From Anaerocolumna aminovalerica (lineage in GTDB: Bacteria > Bacillota > Clostridia > Lachnospirales > Lachnospiraceae): a stretch of DNA of 64,000 nucleotides. Shown one piece after another: positions 55,707 to 64,000 of the stretch. Below the pieces are notes generated by a model. That model was given only the letters and a program-made list of their open reading frames with translations. It was not told where the DNA came from and made no database searches. The translations under genes were made by a program, and so were the position numbers. The stretch's first letter is position 1, and each line of letters opens with the position of its first letter. The stretch is taken from assembly GCF_900115365.1 (NCBI RefSeq), contig NZ_FOWD01000012.1, forward strand, positions 1-64,000. The letters are read 5' to 3'.

Positions 55707-56402
55707 ATGATAACAGCAATATGTGACGATGAAGGAATCTACCGTACCCATGTAAAAAGGCTCTGCCAGGACTATTTTATTGAAAGAAATATTTCAAGTG
55801 AAATTATTGAGTTTTCTTCAGGTGAAGAATTTCTATCATCTGTGGAGGAAATTAATATTGTATTATTGGATATTGAAATGAACGGAATAAATGGAATTAC
55901 TGTAAAAGAGCAGCTCGAAAAGTTAAATAGAGATATTAGGATAGTTTATATAACAAGTCATATTCAATTTATGGAGAATGCTTTTGGAAAGAATGTTTAT
56001 AGTTTTCTAACCAAACCTGTTATGAAAGACAAATTTAATAAAGTAATGGATTTAATTATGAGAGATATGGAAGAAGATTTTATCGTAAAAATAGATAACA
56101 AAGATAATCCATATATTAATTGCAAAACAATTATATACATAAAGGCCCAAGACAAATATACCACGGTAAAAACACGAGAAGGAGAATATCTGGTTCGTCG
56201 CAGCATGAACGACTGGGAAAACATACTGGCAAACAGATTCTTTTATCGTATTCATAAATCTTACATTATAAATCTGGCTTATGTAAAGAGAATAGATAGC
56301 TTGGTTCTGATGGATAATGGCGAAAAGGTAACTATAAGTAAGAAATATATACATTCTTTTAAAGAAAGTTATTACAATTACATAAAGAGAAAGGTAAGAT
56401 GA
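55707..56402 (+). CDS. LytTR-family response regulator (AgrA/ComE-like)
   Basis: A 231-aa regulator: receiver domain with DDE at 7-9 and phospho-Asp about 55 (VLLDIEMNGING), then a LytTR DNA-binding domain with YIKAQDKYTTVKTREGEYLVRRSM and FYRIHKSYIINLAYVKRI. LytTR regulators bind paired direct repeats and commonly drive peptide-bacteriocin and quorum-sensing operons. It is 6 nt ahead of the kinase gene and upstream of the peptide cluster, making it the likely activator of that cluster. Confidence 0.92.
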   Translation: MITAICDDEGIYRTHVKRLCQDYFIERNISSEIIEFSSGEEFLSSVEEINIVLLDIEMNGINGITVKEQLEKLNRDIRIVYITSHIQFMENAFGKNVYSFLTKPVMKDKFNKVMDLIMRDMEEDFIVKIDNKDNPYINCKTIIYIKAQDKYTTVKTREGEYLVRRSMNDWENILANRFFYRIHKSYIINLAYVKRIDSLVLMDNGEKVTISKKYIHSFKESYYNYIKRKVR

Positions 56403-56408
56403 TCAGCT

Positions 56409-57749
56409 ATGGTTACTTTCAGAAATATTGTATATGTATTAGCTATGGAAATACCGGAATTAATCAGTTCTTTTCTTATTTTATGGGGAATCTTACAATG
56501 TAAATTGAAAAAAAGATTTTTACCTTATGGGGAAGCTTATGTTTGCCTGCTTCTTGTATTAGTTTTTACGGTATTAACTGGAAATGTGAATAATTTACCC
56601 CCTATTTGTGTAATCTTGGAATTCCTTATTGTTTTTTTATGCTTTGAAGAACGATTTACAAAAAAAATAGTGCTTTATTTTACTGCCTATATTAGTAGTT
56701 ATATCATTAATACGATAATCAGAATTCTATTCTCTATTATATTTTATAAAAAAGATATTTCTTTGACAGAGTTATCTTATGAGGAATTGATACGGTTTCG
56801 TTTTATTATGTTAACGCTCAATATAGGTATTCTTTTAATTATAATCTTTTCTATAAGAAAATGGAAAAAGCAAATAGCTAATTGGTTAAATAATATTTCC
56901 CTGAGTTATGTAGCCATAGCACTACCTGGATTACTTTGTTGTGCTGTAGTTCTGGCTTTTGTACAAATTAGCAGAAACTATTCTCTTAATATGATTTGGG
57001 ATAAAGTTGCCGGAATATGTGTAACTATTGTGTGTATATTTTTTATGGCTGGAACCGTTGCATTTATTTTTATTAATGACTCCCGAAAACATTACCAAAT
57101 GGAAAATCAATTAAAAGAACGGTTTTTACATATGCAAAATAGTTATTATAAAAATATTTTAGAAAGTGATAAGGAAATTCGAAAATTCCGCCATGATATA
57201 AGAGGGCATATGGGTTGTATGCGTATATTAGCGGAAGAAGGAAAATATCAGGAATTATCCGGCTACATCGGGGAAGTATTTTATGAAGTGGACAACCTTC
57301 TAAATAGAAATTATGCCAGTGGCAATGATTTTGTGGATGCAACCTTAAATTATCTGGGAACAGAGGCTAAAAAAGATGGAATTGCCATAGCTTTGGAGGG
57401 GGTATTGCCGATCTTAAAAATTGCAGGCTCGGATTTATGTACCATATTTTTTAATACAGTCTCTAATGGTATAGAAGCATGCAGGTTTGTTAGGGAAAAA
57501 GAGAAAAGAAATATATCCATATCTATTTTATGTAATCAGAATATTCTGATCATTGCCATTGAGAACCCAGTTATAGAACCGGTTGACATGAATATTTTGG
57601 GAAGGGGAACAACAAAGCCGGATAAAATACATCATGGATATGGAATTCAAAGCATTAAAGATACTGTAAAAAAATATGATGGGGAAGTAAAATTTATAAA
57701 TGAAGAGGGTAAATTTAGAGTAGAAGTAATATTATTAAATATAATATAA
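56409..57749 (+). CDS. GHKL sensor histidine kinase, AgrC/ComD-like
   Basis: A 446-aa kinase. About six membrane helices in residues 1-225 form the sensing part, then a coiled linker, the phospho-acceptor His about 262 in KFRHDIRGHMGCMRIL, and a GHKL ATPase with FNTVSNGIEACR and HHGYGIQSIKDTV. This build is that of receptors for extracellular peptides in peptide-induced bacteriocin systems. No AgrB or AgrD gene is nearby, so the inducer may be one of the small peptides encoded just downstream. Confidence 0.9.
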   Translation: MVTFRNIVYVLAMEIPELISSFLILWGILQCKLKKRFLPYGEAYVCLLLVLVFTVLTGNVNNLPPICVILEFLIVFLCFEERFTKKIVLYFTAYISSYIINTIIRILFSIIFYKKDISLTELSYEELIRFRFIMLTLNIGILLIIIFSIRKWKKQIANWLNNISLSYVAIALPGLLCCAVVLAFVQISRNYSLNMIWDKVAGICVTIVCIFFMAGTVAFIFINDSRKHYQMENQLKERFLHMQNSYYKNILESDKEIRKFRHDIRGHMGCMRILAEEGKYQELSGYIGEVFYEVDNLLNRNYASGNDFVDATLNYLGTEAKKDGIAIALEGVLPILKIAGSDLCTIFFNTVSNGIEACRFVREKEKRNISISILCNQNILIIAIENPVIEPVDMNILGRGTTKPDKIHHGYGIQSIKDTVKKYDGEVKFINEEGKFRVEVILLNII

Positions 57750-58082: not shown

Positions 58083-58139
58083 ATGATATTATTTGATCTT
58101 TTAGATTTATTGCTATGGTTGTTTGGTGGACGTCGTTAA
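58083..58139 (+). CDS. 18-residue hydrophobic peptide, first gene of the peptide operon
   Basis: The frame reads MILFDLLDLLLWLFGGRR and is preceded by AAAGGAGG at ideal distance, so translation is likely. The acidic start, long aliphatic run and GG near the end recall short hydrophobic signalling peptides (SHP, which end in a hydrophobic run plus GG and are trimmed by an M50 protease), but here two arginines follow. A PqqD-like/M50 protein is encoded 50 nt downstream. It may be the inducer sensed by the upstream kinase, a third product, or a leader peptide. I cannot decide from sequence. Confidence 0.55.
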   Translation: MILFDLLDLLLWLFGGRR

Positions 58140-58189
58140 CATAGGTCAATAGGATAAGGTATGGTAAATACCAAGGAGGTGGTCATTTA

Positions 58190-59305
58190 TTGCAGCTTAA
58201 TCCGAATATTATTCTATTACATAATAAAGATTATATGATACATGATAAAGGGACAAGTAAGTATTATAAAATAGACAAGCTTGTATTTGATTTCTTATGT
58301 AATGTAAAGGATGGCAATGAAGTTCAGAAAGACGGACAATACGATGAGCTGGTAACCTTTCTTTATAGTAATGGTATTTTATATGAAGATCAGGATGCCG
58401 GTAAAAGGAATTCCAATGATGTTCCTGTAAAACCAAAGAAGAATTTTCAATTAACACAGATTGATTTGATCGGAATTGATTTAAATAATTTTTTAGATAA
58501 ACACAATAATATTACTAAATTCTTTTGTTCTGAATATTTAGCAGTGATTTATAGAATCAGCTTAACATTATCTTTAATAGTTACAATTTTATGCATTGGA
58601 TTTCTTATCATGAATTGGCATGAATTTGTGCACGTATTATCTGAAAGTATGAGCCTGAAACAAGGTGTAATCGCTTATTTTAGTTTGTTTATAATAACTA
58701 TTTTTCATGAATTTGGACATATTATGCAATGTAAAAAATACGCAGGATACGTTGGCAGATGCGGTATTATGTTATATTTTCTATTCCCGGTATTATATAC
58801 AGATATTACAATTACAAACAGTTTAATTAAAAAGGAAAAAAGTATAGTTATTATGGCAGGAGTGAAAAACCAATTACTCGTTAATGGGGTATTAGGCATT
58901 ATTGTTATTCTGCAAAATCTGTTTCAAGGACAATGGAACGATATTTTAATTATACTATTTTTGTTAAATACAATAATGATTCTTAGTAATTTAAATCCTT
59001 TTTTTAAATATGATGGTTATTGGTTATTATGTACCAAAATCGGTGTAGAAAGATTATATAGTAAAGCAATCGGCTGCGTTTTTAATTTTAGACAATATTC
59101 CGACAACAGCAAGAATGAAAAAAGACTGTTTGTTTATGGAGTATCACTAATTTTATTTTATATTTTATCATGGGGAATTACTATTTCTTATATCTATTTT
59201 CTCCTGATAGAAAGAATCGGTCCATTTTATACAATGTCTATTATCCTGGTATTGTCCTTATTAATACTATATGAAATCTTTAACAGGTATAAGGAGAATA
59301 AATAA
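58190..59305 (+). CDS. PqqD-like domain fused to an M50 membrane metalloprotease
   Basis: A 371-aa protein from a TTG start behind AAGGAGGTGG. Residues about 1-68 (YKIDKLVFDFLCNVKDG, ELVTFLYSNGILYED) resemble PqqD/RRE winged helices that bind RiPP leaders. The rest is a multi-pass membrane protein with the site-2 protease zinc motif HEFGH (173-177) and the third ligand region NPFFKYDGYW (Asp about 275). B. subtilis YydH and the proteases of other RiPP clusters have this arrangement. It most likely recognises the precursor leaders and removes them at the membrane. Confidence 0.85.
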   Translation: MQLNPNIILLHNKDYMIHDKGTSKYYKIDKLVFDFLCNVKDGNEVQKDGQYDELVTFLYSNGILYEDQDAGKRNSNDVPVKPKKNFQLTQIDLIGIDLNNFLDKHNNITKFFCSEYLAVIYRISLTLSLIVTILCIGFLIMNWHEFVHVLSESMSLKQGVIAYFSLFIITIFHEFGHIMQCKKYAGYVGRCGIMLYFLFPVLYTDITITNSLIKKEKSIVIMAGVKNQLLVNGVLGIIVILQNLFQGQWNDILIILFLLNTIMILSNLNPFFKYDGYWLLCTKIGVERLYSKAIGCVFNFRQYSDNSKNEKRLFVYGVSLILFYILSWGITISYIYFLLIERIGPFYTMSIILVLSLLILYEIFNRYKENK

Positions 59306-59358
59306 ATTTTTAGAGCCGGACTTGTGCCAGAGCTTATTGTAGCAGCCATATGATAATT

Positions 59359-59373
59359 AACTGTAGTACAGTT
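59359..59373 (+). promoter_or_regulatory. Perfect 15-bp palindrome before the precursor genes
   Basis: AACTGTAGTACAGTT, 7-bp arms around a central G, about 85 nt before the first precursor gene. It may be an operator for a separate precursor transcript; ATATAAAG at about 59423 is a weak -10 candidate. Confidence 0.4.
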
Positions 59374-59457
59374 TAAGGAAGAGGACACGTAAGAAATCTT
59401 TATAACTATTTTAAGATAGTAATATAAAGAAAAAATAATAAGAAAGGAGGGAAGTAT

Positions 59458-59574
59458 ATGAAAATTTCAAACTTATTTGAATTTGAAGTTATAGAAACTG
59501 TGAAAGCACCTTGTGCTACATGTTTCTGGGGCGGTGCTGCCCTAGTTGCAGCAGCTGTTGTAGCGGCTACATAA
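59458..59574 (+). CDS. RiPP precursor peptide 1
   Basis: A 38-residue peptide with AAGGAGGGA before its ATG. The leader half, MKISNLFEFEVIETVKAP, is acidic; the core half begins CATCFWGG and continues as an Ala/Val-only tail ending VVAAT. The next gene encodes a peptide with the same leader pattern, F-E-x-[IV]-E-[ST]-[VI]-x-[AV]-P, and also a C-terminal Thr. The CxxC pair in the core could form a disulfide or thioether. Pattern and neighbours identify it as a ribosomal natural product precursor, probably cut after the Ala-Pro by the M50 protease. Confidence 0.8.
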   Translation: MKISNLFEFEVIETVKAPCATCFWGGAALVAAAVVAAT

Positions 59575-59609
59575 TGTACAGATAAATTTTAGGGAAAGGA
59601 GGTACATAT

Positions 59610-59732
59610 ATGAATTATTTTAGATTCGAAGAAGTGGAGTCTATCCTTGTTCCCGGACATGGAGGATCAGCAATCGCTGGGGTTGTAGTAGGCGGCATTG
59701 TAGTTGTTGGGGGCGTTGTGATAGGAACCTAA
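59610..59732 (+). CDS. RiPP precursor peptide 2
   Basis: A 40-residue peptide, with AAAGGAGGT before its ATG. The leader is MNYFRFEEVESILVP and the core is Gly/Val/Ile-rich with a GHGGSAIAG start and an ending of VVIGT. Leader motif and terminal Thr match precursor 1, but there is no cysteine, so a Cys-based crosslink is not the common modification. The core could span a membrane as a short helix. Two different hydrophobic peptides made together suggest a two-component membrane-active product. Confidence 0.8.
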   Translation: MNYFRFEEVESILVPGHGGSAIAGVVVGGIVVVGGVVIGT

Positions 59733-59748
59733 TAAATAGTTAAATCTT

Positions 59749-59784
59749 GCAAAGCAAACCAGATGATAATCCGGTTTGCTTTGC
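59749..59784 (+). terminator. Attenuator-like hairpin between precursor and exporter genes
   Basis: A perfect 12-bp stem, GCAAAGCAAACC with GGTTTGCTTTGC, without a long T run. In bacteriocin operons such hairpins raise precursor mRNA relative to the downstream genes. Confidence 0.65.
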
Positions 59785-59806
59785 ATACAATGCATAAAAA
59801 TTATTA

Positions 59807-59840
59807 AAGGAGAAGTTGACTAAAGTTGTCACTTAGTCAA
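59807..59840 (+). promoter_or_regulatory. Shine-Dalgarno separated from the ABC ATPase start by a hairpin
   Basis: AAAGGAGAAG (59807-59815) is 37 nt from the ATG at 59852. Between them TTGACTAA (59816-59823) pairs with TTAGTCAA (59833-59840). Folding would bring the site to about 12 nt from the start. An alternative is a tiny leader frame, TTG at 59816 to TAG at 59834. Confidence 0.5.
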
Positions 59841-59851
59841 TACAAATAAAT

Positions 59852-60772
59852 ATGATATTAAAAGTTAAGCATATAACCAAAAGATATAAAGACATCCTGG
59901 CTGTAGATGATGTTTCCCTGGAAAGCTCCGGGGGAAGAATATATGGACTTTTAGGGCGTAATGGTGCCGGAAAAACTACTTTAATAAAAACTATAATGGG
60001 AATTATAAAACCAGACAATGGTAATGTAGAGATAAAATTTGAAGACAATGAAAAAGGGGAAAAGAGTATCGGTTATTTGCCTGAGGAGCGGGGGCTATAT
60101 CTTAATATATCAGTTAAGGATCAATTATTGTTTATTGCAAGACTAAATGGCTTAAGTAAGGAAGAAGCCATGAAAAATATAAGTTTTTATTTAAAGGAGC
60201 TGGGTATCTCTAATTATTTAGATAGAAAGTTAAAACAGCTATCAAAAGGAAACAAGCAAAAGATCCAGTTAATAAGCGCATTGATTCATAATCCTTCTTT
60301 AATTATCTTAGATGAACCTTTTAGCGGACTTGATCCTGTAAACGTAGCTATTTTTAAAAATTTAATATTAAAATGCAGAGATTCAGGCAAATTAATACTT
60401 CTTTCCAGCCACAGACTGGAAGATGTTGAAGAGATATGTGATGAAGTTTTATTTTTGAAAAAAGGCAAAGCTTTTATTCAGGGACCGGTAAAACAAATAA
60501 CGAAAGATTATACAACCAATAATGACATCTTAATTATTACGGATACAAATGCAGATACTTATTTTAAAAAATTAGATCTCATATATAGAAAAACAGATGA
60601 CTGTTCTTATTTTGTAAAGTATGAGTTTTATGGTAGGATTATGAAACTATTGAATGAACTATTGCTTAATAATATTAATCTGGTTCAGTTTAAGATAGTA
60701 CAAACTACATTAAATGACATTTTTGTAAGGGAGCTAAATGATGAAAATGAAAAAAGCCTTATTGGAAGCTAA
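59852..60772 (+). CDS. ABC transporter ATPase of the peptide cluster (NatA-like)
   Basis: A 306-aa ATPase with Walker A GRNGAGKTT (35-43), signature LSKGNKQKIQ, Walker B LIILDEPFSGLDP and H loop SSHRLEDVE, plus a C-terminal extension of about 90 residues typical of NatA/antibiotic exporters. With the next gene it should export the mature peptides or give producer immunity. It overlaps the permease gene by 35 nt. Confidence 0.9.
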   Translation: MILKVKHITKRYKDILAVDDVSLESSGGRIYGLLGRNGAGKTTLIKTIMGIIKPDNGNVEIKFEDNEKGEKSIGYLPEERGLYLNISVKDQLLFIARLNGLSKEEAMKNISFYLKELGISNYLDRKLKQLSKGNKQKIQLISALIHNPSLIILDEPFSGLDPVNVAIFKNLILKCRDSGKLILLSSHRLEDVEEICDEVLFLKKGKAFIQGPVKQITKDYTTNNDILIITDTNADTYFKKLDLIYRKTDDCSYFVKYEFYGRIMKLLNELLLNNINLVQFKIVQTTLNDIFVRELNDENEKSLIGS

Positions 60773-61958
60773 ATTTACTTACGTTAATTATGTAAAGGGA
60801 AGTGCTTTTCGAATCATACTATTTATTGGAGTCATACTTATTATCGGATTGGTTAATATTGATTCTATAAATGAATTTCTTTTCGCAGATGCAGAGAAAT
60901 ATAAAGCAGGTGTATATCTGGAGAATCAGGAAAGTATTAGTGCAAAAATGATTATGCAGGCCCACTCAGAATTGTTTGAATATATTATTCTAAATGATAA
61001 TAAAAGTGAAGAAAACATAAATAATCTTAAAAGTAGGGATTCCATATATGATGTAATTGTAAAATTCGATGAAAACACCGGTAAGGTCTCTTTCTATTAT
61101 GAATCCGGTATCAGTGCACAAGGTATGAATGAATCTGCTGGTTTTATGCAAGAAGCGGCTAAAGTGTATCTCTTAGAGAAGGAAGGGTATGATGAGAATG
61201 AGATTTCAAAACTGGTTACACCAAATATAGAATTTATTCCTTTTAATATGGTAAACCAGTCAATTATTAATCTGGTTGCCAATATGCTATTATTCTTCAC
61301 CATTTTTATATATGTGGTACATATAGGTAACACCATAACCGAAGAAAAAACAAGCAGAATAGCAGAAACTTTATTATCTTATATATCACCTTTAGAAATG
61401 TTAATAGGAAAGTTGGCGGGAATGCTTGGAATACTCCTTACACACTTAGCTTCATTTTGTATTGTATATCTGATATCCACCAGTGTTTTCCAGTCCTATG
61501 CCTTATTTGACAGCATTGTAAGTGCATTTAATGCAAAGACTCTTTTTATGATGCTCTGTATGTTTATCATCGGATATGTGGAATATGGATTTTTATATGC
61601 GGCAAATTCATCCTTTGCAGATACAGTACAGGATATTGGACAAGCTTCTATAGTACAATCCATATTAATTGTAATTGCATTTTACTTTTCACTTATTTTA
61701 CAAATGCATTATGACAGTAGGCTTGCACATATATTAATATTTATTCCTTTTGTTTCTGTATTCTCAAATATTGTTTTAACTGCCGCCTCAAATATAAGTT
61801 GGCTCATGATACTTCTTGTTATTGCAGTTCAGATTATATATACGGTTTTAATTGGATATTTTTGCACCAAGAGATTTCGATATGGAATAACGAAATACGG
61901 TGCTCAAAAAAGGAGTCGGAAAAGAAATGTATTCATTAATAGTTGGAGCAACCAGTGA
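60738..61958 (+). CDS. ABC-2 type permease of the peptide cluster (NatB-like)
   Basis: A 406-aa permease: one N-terminal helix (about 22-44), a large external domain (about 45-185) and five C-terminal membrane helices, the NatB/ABC-2 pattern. GNTITEEKTSRIAETLLSYISPLEMLIGKLAG is the conserved coupling region. Start ATG at 60738 (or 60741) follows AAGGGAG inside the ATPase gene. The operon continues with a 32-nt overlap into the next gene. Confidence 0.88.
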   Translation: MMKMKKALLEAKFTYVNYVKGSAFRIILFIGVILIIGLVNIDSINEFLFADAEKYKAGVYLENQESISAKMIMQAHSELFEYIILNDNKSEENINNLKSRDSIYDVIVKFDENTGKVSFYYESGISAQGMNESAGFMQEAAKVYLLEKEGYDENEISKLVTPNIEFIPFNMVNQSIINLVANMLLFFTIFIYVVHIGNTITEEKTSRIAETLLSYISPLEMLIGKLAGMLGILLTHLASFCIVYLISTSVFQSYALFDSIVSAFNAKTLFMMLCMFIIGYVEYGFLYAANSSFADTVQDIGQASIVQSILIVIAFYFSLILQMHYDSRLAHILIFIPFVSVFSNIVLTAASNISWLMILLVIAVQIIYTVLIGYFCTKRFRYGITKYGAQKRSRKRNVFINSWSNQ

Positions 61959-62655
61959 GATAGCAAAAGAATTTATAAAACAGAATCCCGGTAAAAAATA
62001 TATTCTTACAGAGATACCTAAAAATTATGATGCCTTAAAACAGTTTATAGAGGAAATACAAATTGATGGGACTGCTTTTGTATTGGATGTAAAGAATATA
62101 AGGGAAATAGAGGATTTATTTCAAAAATTTAATAGGGAAGATGTAAAGATTGAGGAACTTATCTATATTGCAGGTATTAACTATTTATGTGAAGCGGTTC
62201 AAACAACAGAAGCAATTTGGGATGAAGTGAATGCCATTAATTTAAAGGGTTGCTTTTTTGTAATGAAAGAAGCAGGGAAAAATATGATCTTACATAATGT
62301 AAAGGGAAGAATCGTAAATATAGCCTCTCAACATGGTATGGTAGGAAACCTGAATCGGGCAGCATATTGTGCCAGTAAGGCCGGGTTAATAAACCTGAAT
62401 AAAGTTTTGGCATTGGAATGGGCACCTTATGGAATCCGGGTCAATTCGGTTTCTCCAACCTTTATTCTATATAATAAAAACGAAGAGTTTTTTATGAACG
62501 CAATGGCAAAAAAAGAATATTTAAAAAATATACCTATGAAACGCTATTGTAATGCACAAGATGTAAGTAATGCCATCTCTTTTTTACTGGCAGAAGAAAA
62601 TGAAATGATTACAGGGCATAATTTAGTAGTTGACGGAGGCTGGACAATTAAGTAA
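61927..62655 (+). CDS. Short-chain dehydrogenase/reductase of the peptide cluster
   Basis: A 242-aa SDR. The nucleotide motif is IVGATSEIAKE (5-15), and the Ser-Tyr-Lys triad is S134 (NIASQHG), Y147 and K151 (AAYCASKAG), all present, with the usual ending VVDGGW. ATG at 61927 follows GGAGTCGG, overlapping the permease gene. An oxidoreductase inside a RiPP operon is likely a tailoring enzyme. Oxidation of the beta-hydroxyl of the C-terminal Thr, with loss of CO2, would fit the Thr ends of both precursors. This is inference. Confidence 0.85.
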   Translation: MYSLIVGATSEIAKEFIKQNPGKKYILTEIPKNYDALKQFIEEIQIDGTAFVLDVKNIREIEDLFQKFNREDVKIEELIYIAGINYLCEAVQTTEAIWDEVNAINLKGCFFVMKEAGKNMILHNVKGRIVNIASQHGMVGNLNRAAYCASKAGLINLNKVLALEWAPYGIRVNSVSPTFILYNKNEEFFMNAMAKKEYLKNIPMKRYCNAQDVSNAISFLLAEENEMITGHNLVVDGGWTIK

Positions 62656-62706
62656 TTCATTTAATGTAAGATTATTGGGGATTAATTTAATTTAAGGAGG
62701 GAGTCT

Positions 62707-64000
62707 ATGAAGAATAAGGTACTTTTGATTAATCTGCCTTGTCACTCTACCATGCAGGATTTTGTAGATAATAGTTTTCAATATAATCCGGCACTTGGCT
62801 TGTTGGCTATCACAGATTATTTGTCCATGTTTGATTTTGAAGCTTTGATATTGGATTATAACTATAATGAAATCAATTATGGAGAATTATTTGATTATAT
62901 TGATAAAAAAGGGGTTACAATGATTGCCTTTACTGCTTATACGGAGAATTTAAACACAATGCTGAAATTTATCCGAATCATTAAGAAACAATTTAGAAAT
63001 GTTAAAATAGCAGTAGGGGGTCCTCATGCAACCCTTCGTCCGGAAGAAATTATTAAAAACCAGAATGTAGACTTTGTTTTATCAAGGGACGGAGAAGCAA
63101 CTTTTCTGGAATTAATGCTTCACCTTGAAATGGGAGATAATTTAATATCTTTAGATAAAATTAAAGGTTTATATTATTCCCAGGGTGAAAGAAAGATACA
63201 AAACGAAAACAGAGAAGTAGTTTCAGACCTTAACCTCCTTCCCATTATTAATAGAGAAAGGGTGGATACAAAACGTTATAGATCCATAGTATCTATTTAT
63301 TCCAGTAAAGGATGTCCGGCCAAATGTATTTATTGTTCTGCTTCCGCTATATCCGGGGCTAAATATAGAATGCGCAATATTAAAAATGTTTTCTTGGAAT
63401 GCCAGGTCATTTATAATCAGATGGAACCGGATACGGATAAATTATATTTTATTGATGACACTTTTACAGTGAATGTAAAACGTGTAAGGGAATGGTGTTC
63501 CTTATGTAATGAGTATAAGTTAAAAATGAAGTGGAGCTGTGAGTCAAGAGTGGATGTTATGAATGAAGAAATCATTGATTTGATAGCCTCTACAGACTGT
63601 TTCTCCATACAATTTGGGGTAGAAAGCGGAAATCAAGAGGTATTAAATAAAATTAAGAAGAATATTAAATTAAGTCATCTGGAAAGGATCGTTGATTATA
63701 TTAAACAATATAAAATTGGTATTTTTTTAAGCCTGATTCTGGGACATTTTTGTGATACGGAAGAGACAATGATGGAAACCATTGAATTAGCTAAAAGACT
63801 TAGAAAGCTAAATCCTAATGTGGAATATGGAATATCCGTAAATACACCATTTCCGGGAACCTGGCAGTATGAAAACGCAGATAAGATAGGTTTAAGAATT
63901 ACGGATAGAGATTACTCCAATTATGATTTAATAACACCGGTAATTGAAACAGAACATTTTAATAAAGCCAGACTGGAGGAACTTCGTAACTTGGCAAATT
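62707..64000 (+). CDS. B12-binding-domain radical SAM enzyme (runs off the window)
   Basis: An open frame of 431 codons from ATG at 62707 (AAGGAGGGAG upstream) to the window edge. Residues about 1-140 form a cobalamin-binding Rossmann domain (NPALGLLAITDYL, AVGGPHATLRPEEI, VLSRDGEATFLEL). The radical SAM motif is CPAKCIYC (Cys 203, 207, 210), followed by the FIDDTFTVN and FGVESGNQEVL blocks of class B cobalamin-dependent enzymes. These mostly methylate unreactive carbons; some do other chemistry. In this operon it probably modifies the hydrophobic cores. The C-terminus is missing only because the window ends. Confidence 0.88.
   Translation, partial: MKNKVLLINLPCHSTMQDFVDNSFQYNPALGLLAITDYLSMFDFEALILDYNYNEINYGELFDYIDKKGVTMIAFTAYTENLNTMLKFIRIIKKQFRNVKIAVGGPHATLRPEEIIKNQNVDFVLSRDGEATFLELMLHLEMGDNLISLDKIKGLYYSQGERKIQNENREVVSDLNLLPIINRERVDTKRYRSIVSIYSSKGCPAKCIYCSASAISGAKYRMRNIKNVFLECQVIYNQMEPDTDKLYFIDDTFTVNVKRVREWCSLCNEYKLKMKWSCESRVDVMNEEIIDLIASTDCFSIQFGVESGNQEVLNKIKKNIKLSHLERIVDYIKQYKIGIFLSLILGHFCDTEETMMETIELAKRLRKLNPNVEYGISVNTPFPGTWQYENADKIGLRITDRDYSNYDLITPVIETEHFNKARLEELRNLAN

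Follow-up and report, generated by a model that had tools for sequence, protein, structure and literature searches.

The window analysed here, a stretch of 64,000 nucleotides from the start of contig NZ_FOWD01000012.1 of Anaerocolumna aminovalerica, ends inside an operon for ribosomally synthesized and post-translationally modified peptides (RiPPs). Judged by its genes and their homologies, the operon is a daptide cluster of the Bacillota type, inside the known class. Its accessory protein, DapB, looks like the descendant of a cobalamin-type radical S-adenosylmethionine (SAM) enzyme with a SPASM domain that lost its catalytic motif and kept eight auxiliary-cluster cysteines. The combined reading, a Bacillota-type daptide operon yielding two companion hydrophobic peptides with the full pathway and DapB descent proposed below, was given a probability of about 85 %. 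The contig comprises 111,591 bases, the genome has 4.62 Mb and is 99.86 % complete, and positions above 64000 keep the contig numbering. The window holds the first part of the operon and the remainder follows within 4.4 kb past position 64000 on the same contig. Reading of the open reading frames (ORFs) placed all operon genes on the + strand, those inside the window in the order listed by the original prediction, which had been made from the window alone; the genes that it named (an 18-residue peptide, an M50 protease, two Thr-ended precursors, an exporter, a short-chain dehydrogenase/reductase (SDR) and a B12 radical SAM enzyme) are all present in one direction.

The original prediction had proposed daptide-like logic with different enzymes and possibly a new RiPP class, no aminotransferase or methyltransferase being visible. 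That absence holds inside the window but is an artefact of its edge, with both genes at 66243–68358 of the same contig. Reading beyond 64000, as had been advised, located the three roles sought within 4.4 kb (aminotransferase, methyltransferase and, probably, a protein with a RiPP recognition element, RRE). A new RiPP class was rejected because the missing genes sit just past 64000. The idea of different enzymes is likewise unsupported, because the SDR is a known Bacillota substitute: in a 2023 report of 483 daptide clusters, a PF13561 oxidoreductase replaces the iron-type dehydrogenase in Bacillota (PMC10036551). Since 180 of those clusters are from Bacillota, daptides are not solely actinobacterial, as had been assumed. 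The daptide-like logic itself held, with daptide NCBIfam models as top match for three enzymes and Thr-ended precursors recurring in relatives, and the suggestion that the SDR is the Thr oxidase agrees with the PF13561 role stated for Bacillota daptides (PMC10036551).

The features expected of a daptide cluster were found together: Thr-ended hydrophobic precursors, a PF13561 SDR, a DapB with a probable RRE, a methyltransferase, an aminotransferase of class III, and an M50 protease with an ABC exporter. The RRE assignment rests on a Foldseek search with the DapB homologue of the nearest relative, not with the window's own protein. The M50 intramembrane protease (DapP role, 58190–59305) has a TTG start, the motifs HEFGH and NPFFKYDG and, by reading only, an RRE-like N-terminus; its top NCBIfam match was the daptide model NF041824 (daptide_HExxH), at 132.5 bits (curated cut-off 300). 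The exporter genes, for an ABC ATPase (DapT1, 59852–60772) and a permease (DapT2, 60738–61958), overlap by 35 nt; they were assigned by reading and served as seeds of the exporter profile. The SDR (DapC role, 61927–62655) matched PF13561 at 2.1e-44, contains a YCASK motif and matched the SDRs of the relatives G278, G062, G462 and G586 at 40–44 %. Past the window edge lie DapB (515 aa, 64696–66243), the methyltransferase (DapM role, 66243–67061; top match NF041820, 119.1 bits, cut-off 175) and the class III aminotransferase (DapD role, 67054–68358; top match NF041821, 343.9 bits, cut-off 450), whose genes overlap by a few bases.

Precursors A1 (38 aa, 59458–59574) and A2 (40 aa, 59610–59732) are small, membrane-like and preceded by good ribosome sites, with predicted cores of CATCFWGGAALVAAAVVAAT and GHGGSAIAGVVVGGIVVVGGVVIGT, respectively, after a Pro. 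Across the whole window, 34 short ORFs (25–60 aa, Shine–Dalgarno match of at least 5) were counted, three of them Thr-ended and six with a hydrophobic tail; among these six, only two had an ATG start, and these were A1 and A2, both Thr-ended. A C-terminal Thr was also found in 33 of 37 precursor-like ORFs from 16 clusters, the remaining four ending in C, G, N and H. Chance was rejected as the source of the Thr endings on both sets of counts. The set of 37 was defined by a hydrophobic-tail filter and no overlap with a called gene; three rows from G892 are identical, the locus L044 is not in the set, two charged-tail ORFs (L046:399-515 and L047:580-735) were dropped by the filter, and two Thr-ended ORFs of L040 and one of G462 were dropped for overlapping called genes. 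The leaders (FEFEVIETVKAP and FRFEEVESILVP) resemble the daptide leader motif ELExMEAP, and that of G892 reads QFEEMEAVTAP. The precursors gave no match in NCBIfam or Pfam, no dedicated leader hidden Markov model being used. The A1 core motif CxxCFWGGAALV is conserved in four clusters (the window, L038, L039 and L040), the L038 core being nearly identical to that of the window, and A2 counterparts are present in L038, L039 and L040.

Two variations on the precursors were seen. The two charged-tail ORFs of L046 and L047 have a hydrophobic part similar to that of a neighbouring precursor, with a charged or polar tail in place of the Thr; they are perhaps immunity or decoy peptides. One precursor of G062 (L015:14091-14231) ends in Cys, not Thr, and its cluster also carries, by reading, YcaO-like, ThiF-like and second M50 genes.

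Both DapB and the B12 radical SAM enzyme served as queries for relatives. The window genome (G000) is included in each of the four counts given next. Within the family, 3 of 299 genomes had a match to the 515-aa DapB in a protein search, and six did so with a 10-row profile. A 3-row profile found four genomes among 391 of the class, and a 6-row profile four among 398 of the phylum. Two of the phylum matches (G733 and G924) were weak and outside daptide clusters, that of G924 being a true radical SAM/SPASM protein by its motifs. Among the matches of the 10-row profile, those in G082 and G166 were intact radical SAM/SPASM proteins with no daptide set around them, and the radical SAM protein matched in G272 has no SPASM motif. 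In G166 the intact B12-type protein lies beside a large, by reading polyketide-synthase-like gene (L073:8084-15318). The complete daptide set (precursors, methyltransferase, DapB, aminotransferase, M50 protease, exporter and SDR) was present in five relatives, G278 (locus L046), G062, G462, G586 (locus L043) and G892, with DapB found by profile search and the other roles assigned by reading. A DapB-type protein occurred in 10 of 148 genomes of the G892 family, G892 included; the SPASM core CxxC..CxxC was present in all ten and an aminotransferase on the short locus beside nine. Scanning contigs with an alignment of the B12 radical SAM protein gave 11 loci, with an aminotransferase in seven and a methyltransferase in seven. 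The nearest relative was L038, from a metagenome-assembled genome of Alkalibaculum bacchi, whose B12 radical SAM protein is 64 % identical to that of the window; its contig ends soon after the methyltransferase, and that of L045 starts just before the precursors.

A plasmid set was also searched. The DapB proteins of the window and of L043 gave no matches there, and the aminotransferase and M50 searches (best 40 of 1158 and best 40 of 81 records) returned mostly other proteins. They led to two plasmid-borne daptide clusters of Bacilli, one in Priestia and one in Staphylococcus epidermidis. An M50 match on a Streptomyces plasmid had no daptide set in its annotation.

The window DapB has eight cysteines in SPASM order and spacing (residues 293, 300, 319, 353, 356, 362, 365 and 378), with gaps of 6, 18, 33, 2, 5, 2 and 12 residues compared with 5, 14, 40, 2, 5, 3 and 17 in anSME (PMC5682303). 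In an alignment of 22 sequences (18 DapB-type and four intact radical SAM proteins), seven of the eight columns were Cys throughout and one in 21 of 22; this alignment omits L055, L056 and L058, three of the ten proteins from the G892 family, and the two plasmid DapBs of Bacilli, which have no SPASM cysteines, and G892 stands in it for L051. The radical SAM motif CxxxCxxC was absent from all 14 DapBs of one set (the window included) and all ten of a second, that of the G892 family, G892 being in both. It was kept in the intact DapB-like forms of Lachnotalea glycerini (L042, 715 aa) and Vallitalea (L048) and in the radical SAM/SPASM proteins of G082 and G166.

The C-terminal part of the window DapB is probably a peptide-binding RRE, as judged from a structure model (mean pLDDT 78.7) of the L038 homologue, 43 % identical to the window protein. 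With Foldseek, the C-terminal domain of this model matched the RRE protein TbiB1 with bound leader (probability 1.00, TM-score 0.73–0.75 by target, E 0.013–0.034). The whole short protein had no match with E≤0.001; a dehydrogenase ranked first (0.0054, probability 0.18), and anSME and SkfB were matched at probabilities of 0.21 or less. The model NF041823 (daptide_RRE) matched the L043 DapB at positions 105–309 of 331 (E 4.2e-5, 22.8 bits, cut-off 150), a hint at common descent with the daptide_RRE family. Among solved structures, a profile search found weak matches only: 5wgg, a radical SAM protein (CteB), at 0.04, TfuB1 at 0.025 and 0.063, and two others above 0.1.

DapB looks fallen because its longer relatives align with intact radical SAM/SPASM enzymes yet have no CxxxCxxC. 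In an hhalign comparison, 11 long DapBs, with no intact rows included, matched four intact radical SAM/SPASM relatives with a probability of 99.9 (E 1.3e-35), and the alignment was collinear (10–649 against 4–682), starting close to the N-terminus and extending through the SPASM domain but not over the RRE part. The barrel and N-terminal segments of the long DapBs matched the four intact forms at 89.2 and 97.7 %, respectively. Their first 520 residues matched the B12 radical SAM family at 86.5 % (4.6e-6), and five unrelated profiles reached 1.2 % or less. The long DapB of Ruminiclostridium hungatei (L043) was modelled with a pLDDT of 78.0 and a pTM of 0.81, and all 16 of its Foldseek matches with E≤0.001 were to AprD4, CysS, TokK, TsrM or OxsB (TM-score by query 0.29–0.33), all of them cobalamin-type radical SAM enzymes. 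The short, window-type DapB aligned with the long DapBs from residue 142 onward (100 %, 7.3e-45) and with the intact enzymes over the SPASM stretch 242–380 (97.7 %). Its length and these alignments suggest that it has lost most of the barrel as well.

Several results weigh against this account of DapB. The SPASM model TIGR04085 gave the window protein 19.7 bits (cut-off 27) and matched only five of the ten proteins of DapB set A4 at E≤1, and the final SPASM gap is 12 residues, compared with 17 in anSME. The structure behind the RRE assignment is that of the L038 homologue, and NF041823 matched two of the ten A4 proteins and nothing in the window's own genome. When taken alone, the pieces of the long DapBs matched the B12 radical SAM family less well (barrel 4.6 %, N-terminal segment 29.1 %). 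The N-terminus of the short DapB matched the intact enzymes at just 1.9 %, so that the claim of descent for the short form rests on the long ones. The modelling alignment for L043 included two intact radical SAM rows and its Foldseek result is thus not independent of the hhalign test, for which reason descent was tested apart, without intact rows. The shorter plasmid DapBs of Bacilli, lacking SPASM cysteines, had local matches to the long DapBs (90.2 % over 81 columns and 78.8 % over 75), scored 9.7 and 43.2 % against the short DapBs in two hhalign runs and showed no link to the intact forms (0.1 %). As these two DapBs lack the SPASM cysteines, the putative iron-sulfur clusters are not essential to the daptide class.

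The presence of an SDR gene was compared with the state of DapB. An SDR gene was found in all 11 clusters whose DapB is without CxxxCxxC (G000, L038, L039, L040, L041, L043, L046, L047, G462, G062 and G892; G062 and G892 by reading). In L. glycerini (14321–16468 of L042) and Vallitalea (14491–16683 of L048), a DapB-like protein that retains the motif lies beside daptide-type aminotransferase and methyltransferase genes. Daptide NCBIfam models were the top matches in L042 (aminotransferase 352.6 bits, methyltransferase 147.6 bits), and the L048 genes were assigned with our own profiles. No co-directional SDR was seen in either cluster; L048 has one low-scoring SDR (91, compared with 180–384 for cluster SDRs) on the opposite strand, some 2.8 kb beyond the methyltransferase gene. 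The pattern, which comprises two cases selected through another gene in the B12 radical SAM scan, suggests that L042 and L048 have a radical version of daptide decarboxylation. Such a step is chemically reasonable because the radical SAM/SPASM enzyme MftC oxidatively decarboxylates a tyrosine at a peptide C-terminus (PMC5682303). Both clusters also encode a PqqD protein, Thr-ended precursors, one of them Cys-rich in each cluster, and a second radical SAM enzyme that resembles those of sactipeptides; therefore they may be hybrids in which another enzyme could decarboxylate. As a tentative history, to which somewhat less than even odds were given, daptide C-terminal oxidation would have begun as radical chemistry and the SDR would have taken over from DapB, with L. 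glycerini and Vallitalea keeping the radical form. The SPASM clusters of the window clade would still be working, whether for the SDR step or in a SPASM–RRE unit lent to the B12 enzyme.

In the proposed pathway, whose chemical steps are inferred from the genes, homologies and conserved motifs observed directly, the RRE of DapB would bind the precursor leader and present the C-terminal Thr to the SDR, which would oxidize it; loss of CO2 would leave an aminoacetone group. The class III aminotransferase would convert this to 1,2-diaminopropane and the methyltransferase would dimethylate it to give Dmp. The M50 protease would then cleave after Pro and the ABC pair would export the peptides. The calculated masses of the Dmp products, [M+H]+, are 1835.97 for A1 and 2114.28 for A2. 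The B12 radical SAM enzyme would perhaps add C-methyl groups (+14.016 each), possibly near the CxxCFWGG of A1.

The assignment of this chemistry has its own weak points. The daptide-model scores of the aminotransferase, methyltransferase and M50 protease were all under the curated cut-offs, no methyltransferase was found in L039, neither methyltransferase nor aminotransferase in L041, and no called M50 protease in L040. These scores, the gaps in L039 and L041 and the Cys-ended precursor of G062 would also fit another route to a C-terminally modified peptide, in which the SDR does no more than oxidize or reduce a side chain, a different residue is the target of the aminotransferase and methyltransferase, and the product is not Dmp-ended. 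This is very unlikely, given that terminal Thr predominates among the precursor-like ORFs and that enzyme sets of this kind were shown to produce Dmp in actinobacteria (PMC10036551). DapB might alternatively lend its SPASM and RRE parts to the adjoining B12 radical SAM enzyme, instead of or besides the SDR; Pfam shows only B12-binding and Radical_SAM domains in that enzyme. The LanM-type L044 cluster, where a B12 radical SAM gene has a long DapB-like protein for a neighbour, speaks for such a partnership. However, G062 and G892 combine a SPASM-bearing DapB and an SDR with no B12 radical SAM gene within the 19 kb read, and the actinobacterial equivalent MpaB is required for decarboxylation (PMC10036551), which makes service to the B12 enzyme unlikely.

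The B12 radical SAM enzyme (62707–64011, the window stopping at 64000) showed both of its Pfam domains above the cut-offs (PF02310, 9.2e-19; PF04055, 1.2e-16), and its CPAKCIYC fits CxxxCxxC. It matched four homologues at 37–39 % and the ApyD-type model NF050148 at 124.2 bits (cut-off 750). It is perhaps a C-methylase, and the conserved CxxCFWGGAALV of the A1 core is possibly its site. Alternatively, its substrate may be a sugar or lipid, or the gene may simply be an unrelated passenger: the enzyme's top NCBIfam matches were HpnJ, PhpK and BchE, far below cut-off, and a glycosyltransferase-like gene (by reading) follows one or more genes later in G278, G462, G586, L045 and L047. No such gene was seen after it in the window operon, L038, L039 or L040, and of the six daptide clusters that DapB led to, four (G000, G278, G462 and G586; not G062 or G892) have the B12 radical SAM gene 3′ of the SDR gene. 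A role other than peptide methylation was considered rather unlikely, and it is still plausible that this enzyme makes a second modification.

Further features were read around these genes. A LytTR-type response regulator (55707–56402, + strand) and an Agr-type sensor kinase (56409–57749, + strand), whose families were named by reading the sequence without a scan, lie upstream and from their position are possible regulators of the operon; similar regulator and kinase genes adjoin the G062 cluster (by reading), and the G586 cluster has a response regulator nearby. The 18-aa hydrophobic peptide MILFDLLDLLLWLFGGRR (58083–58139, + strand; Shine–Dalgarno match 8/8) is a possible regulatory or leaderless peptide, and no counterpart was found upstream of the M50 gene in L038. 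The gap between A2 and the exporter holds a stem–loop (59748–59785, + strand), a possible attenuator or processing site; the fold of 59733–59851, comprising this and a second, smaller stem–loop, had an energy of −32.4 kcal/mol (z −6.2), equalled by none of 200 shuffles. Two small overlapping ORFs of 75 and 79 aa (64232–64670, + strand) resemble, by eye, a protein of 134–141 aa that some relatives encode downstream of their B12 radical SAM gene. Downstream of the aminotransferase, a gene read as subtilase-like starts at 68501; it was not counted into the operon. In L044 (7328–11356), the DapB-like protein that adjoins the B12 radical SAM gene is without CxxxCxxC; the LanM type of this cluster was assigned by reading, and no SDR, aminotransferase or methyltransferase was found in the ~18 kb read of its 21.5-kb contig.

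The cluster shares with the Bacillota daptides at least two Thr-ended hydrophobic precursors, the PF13561 SDR, an RRE accessory protein, the aminotransferase, the methyltransferase, the M50 protease and the ABC exporter, and differs from them in the SPASM cysteines of the accessory protein, the B12 radical SAM enzyme with its small ORFs and the CxxCFWGGAALV core (PMC10036551). The proposed logic from Thr through aminoacetone and diaminopropane to Dmp is that of the actinobacterial daptides mpa, tfDap and saDap, whose pathway has been reconstituted with actinobacterial enzymes; these have a PF00465-type DapC and YcaO imidazolines, whereas the window operon has an SDR and no YcaO was seen among its genes (PMC12338566). 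DapB shares eight SPASM cysteines of similar spacing with anSME and MftC but has no CxxxCxxC and is too short for a full barrel (PMC5682303). ApyD, a Tyr C-beta methylase, is likewise encoded in a RiPP cluster and belongs to the B12 radical SAM enzymes; it has another substrate and is described as RRE-containing (PMC10635010).

As such, an extra radical SAM enzyme is nothing new for daptide clusters; radical SAM enzymes are named among the secondary enzymes of daptide subgroups (PMC10036551). What looks surprising is that DapB seems to be a radical SAM enzyme that has fallen and kept its SPASM ligands, and that intact forms adjoin daptide-type genes where the cluster shows no SDR of its own. 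The open-licence PMC papers searched yielded no report of SPASM cysteines in DapB or of its radical SAM origin. The main text of PMC10036551 contained none of the terms SPASM, iron-sulfur, cobalamin or Clostridi-, that of PMC12338566 neither SPASM nor iron-sulfur, and the main text of PMC12710340 no occurrence of SPASM; mention in any of the three supplements is possible. When the class was described, the daptide accessory protein was termed functionally unannotated, and an RRE-containing DUF protein was found to be needed for decarboxylation (PMC10036551). A radical SAM origin, if true, gives this protein an identity. It would also join three routes of carboxylate removal (PF00465 dehydrogenase, SDR and radical SAM) within one RiPP family and offer a testable case of an iron-sulfur domain retained after loss of the catalytic cluster. 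Clusters like that of L. glycerini would broaden the set of enzymes that convert the acid end of a peptide to an amine.

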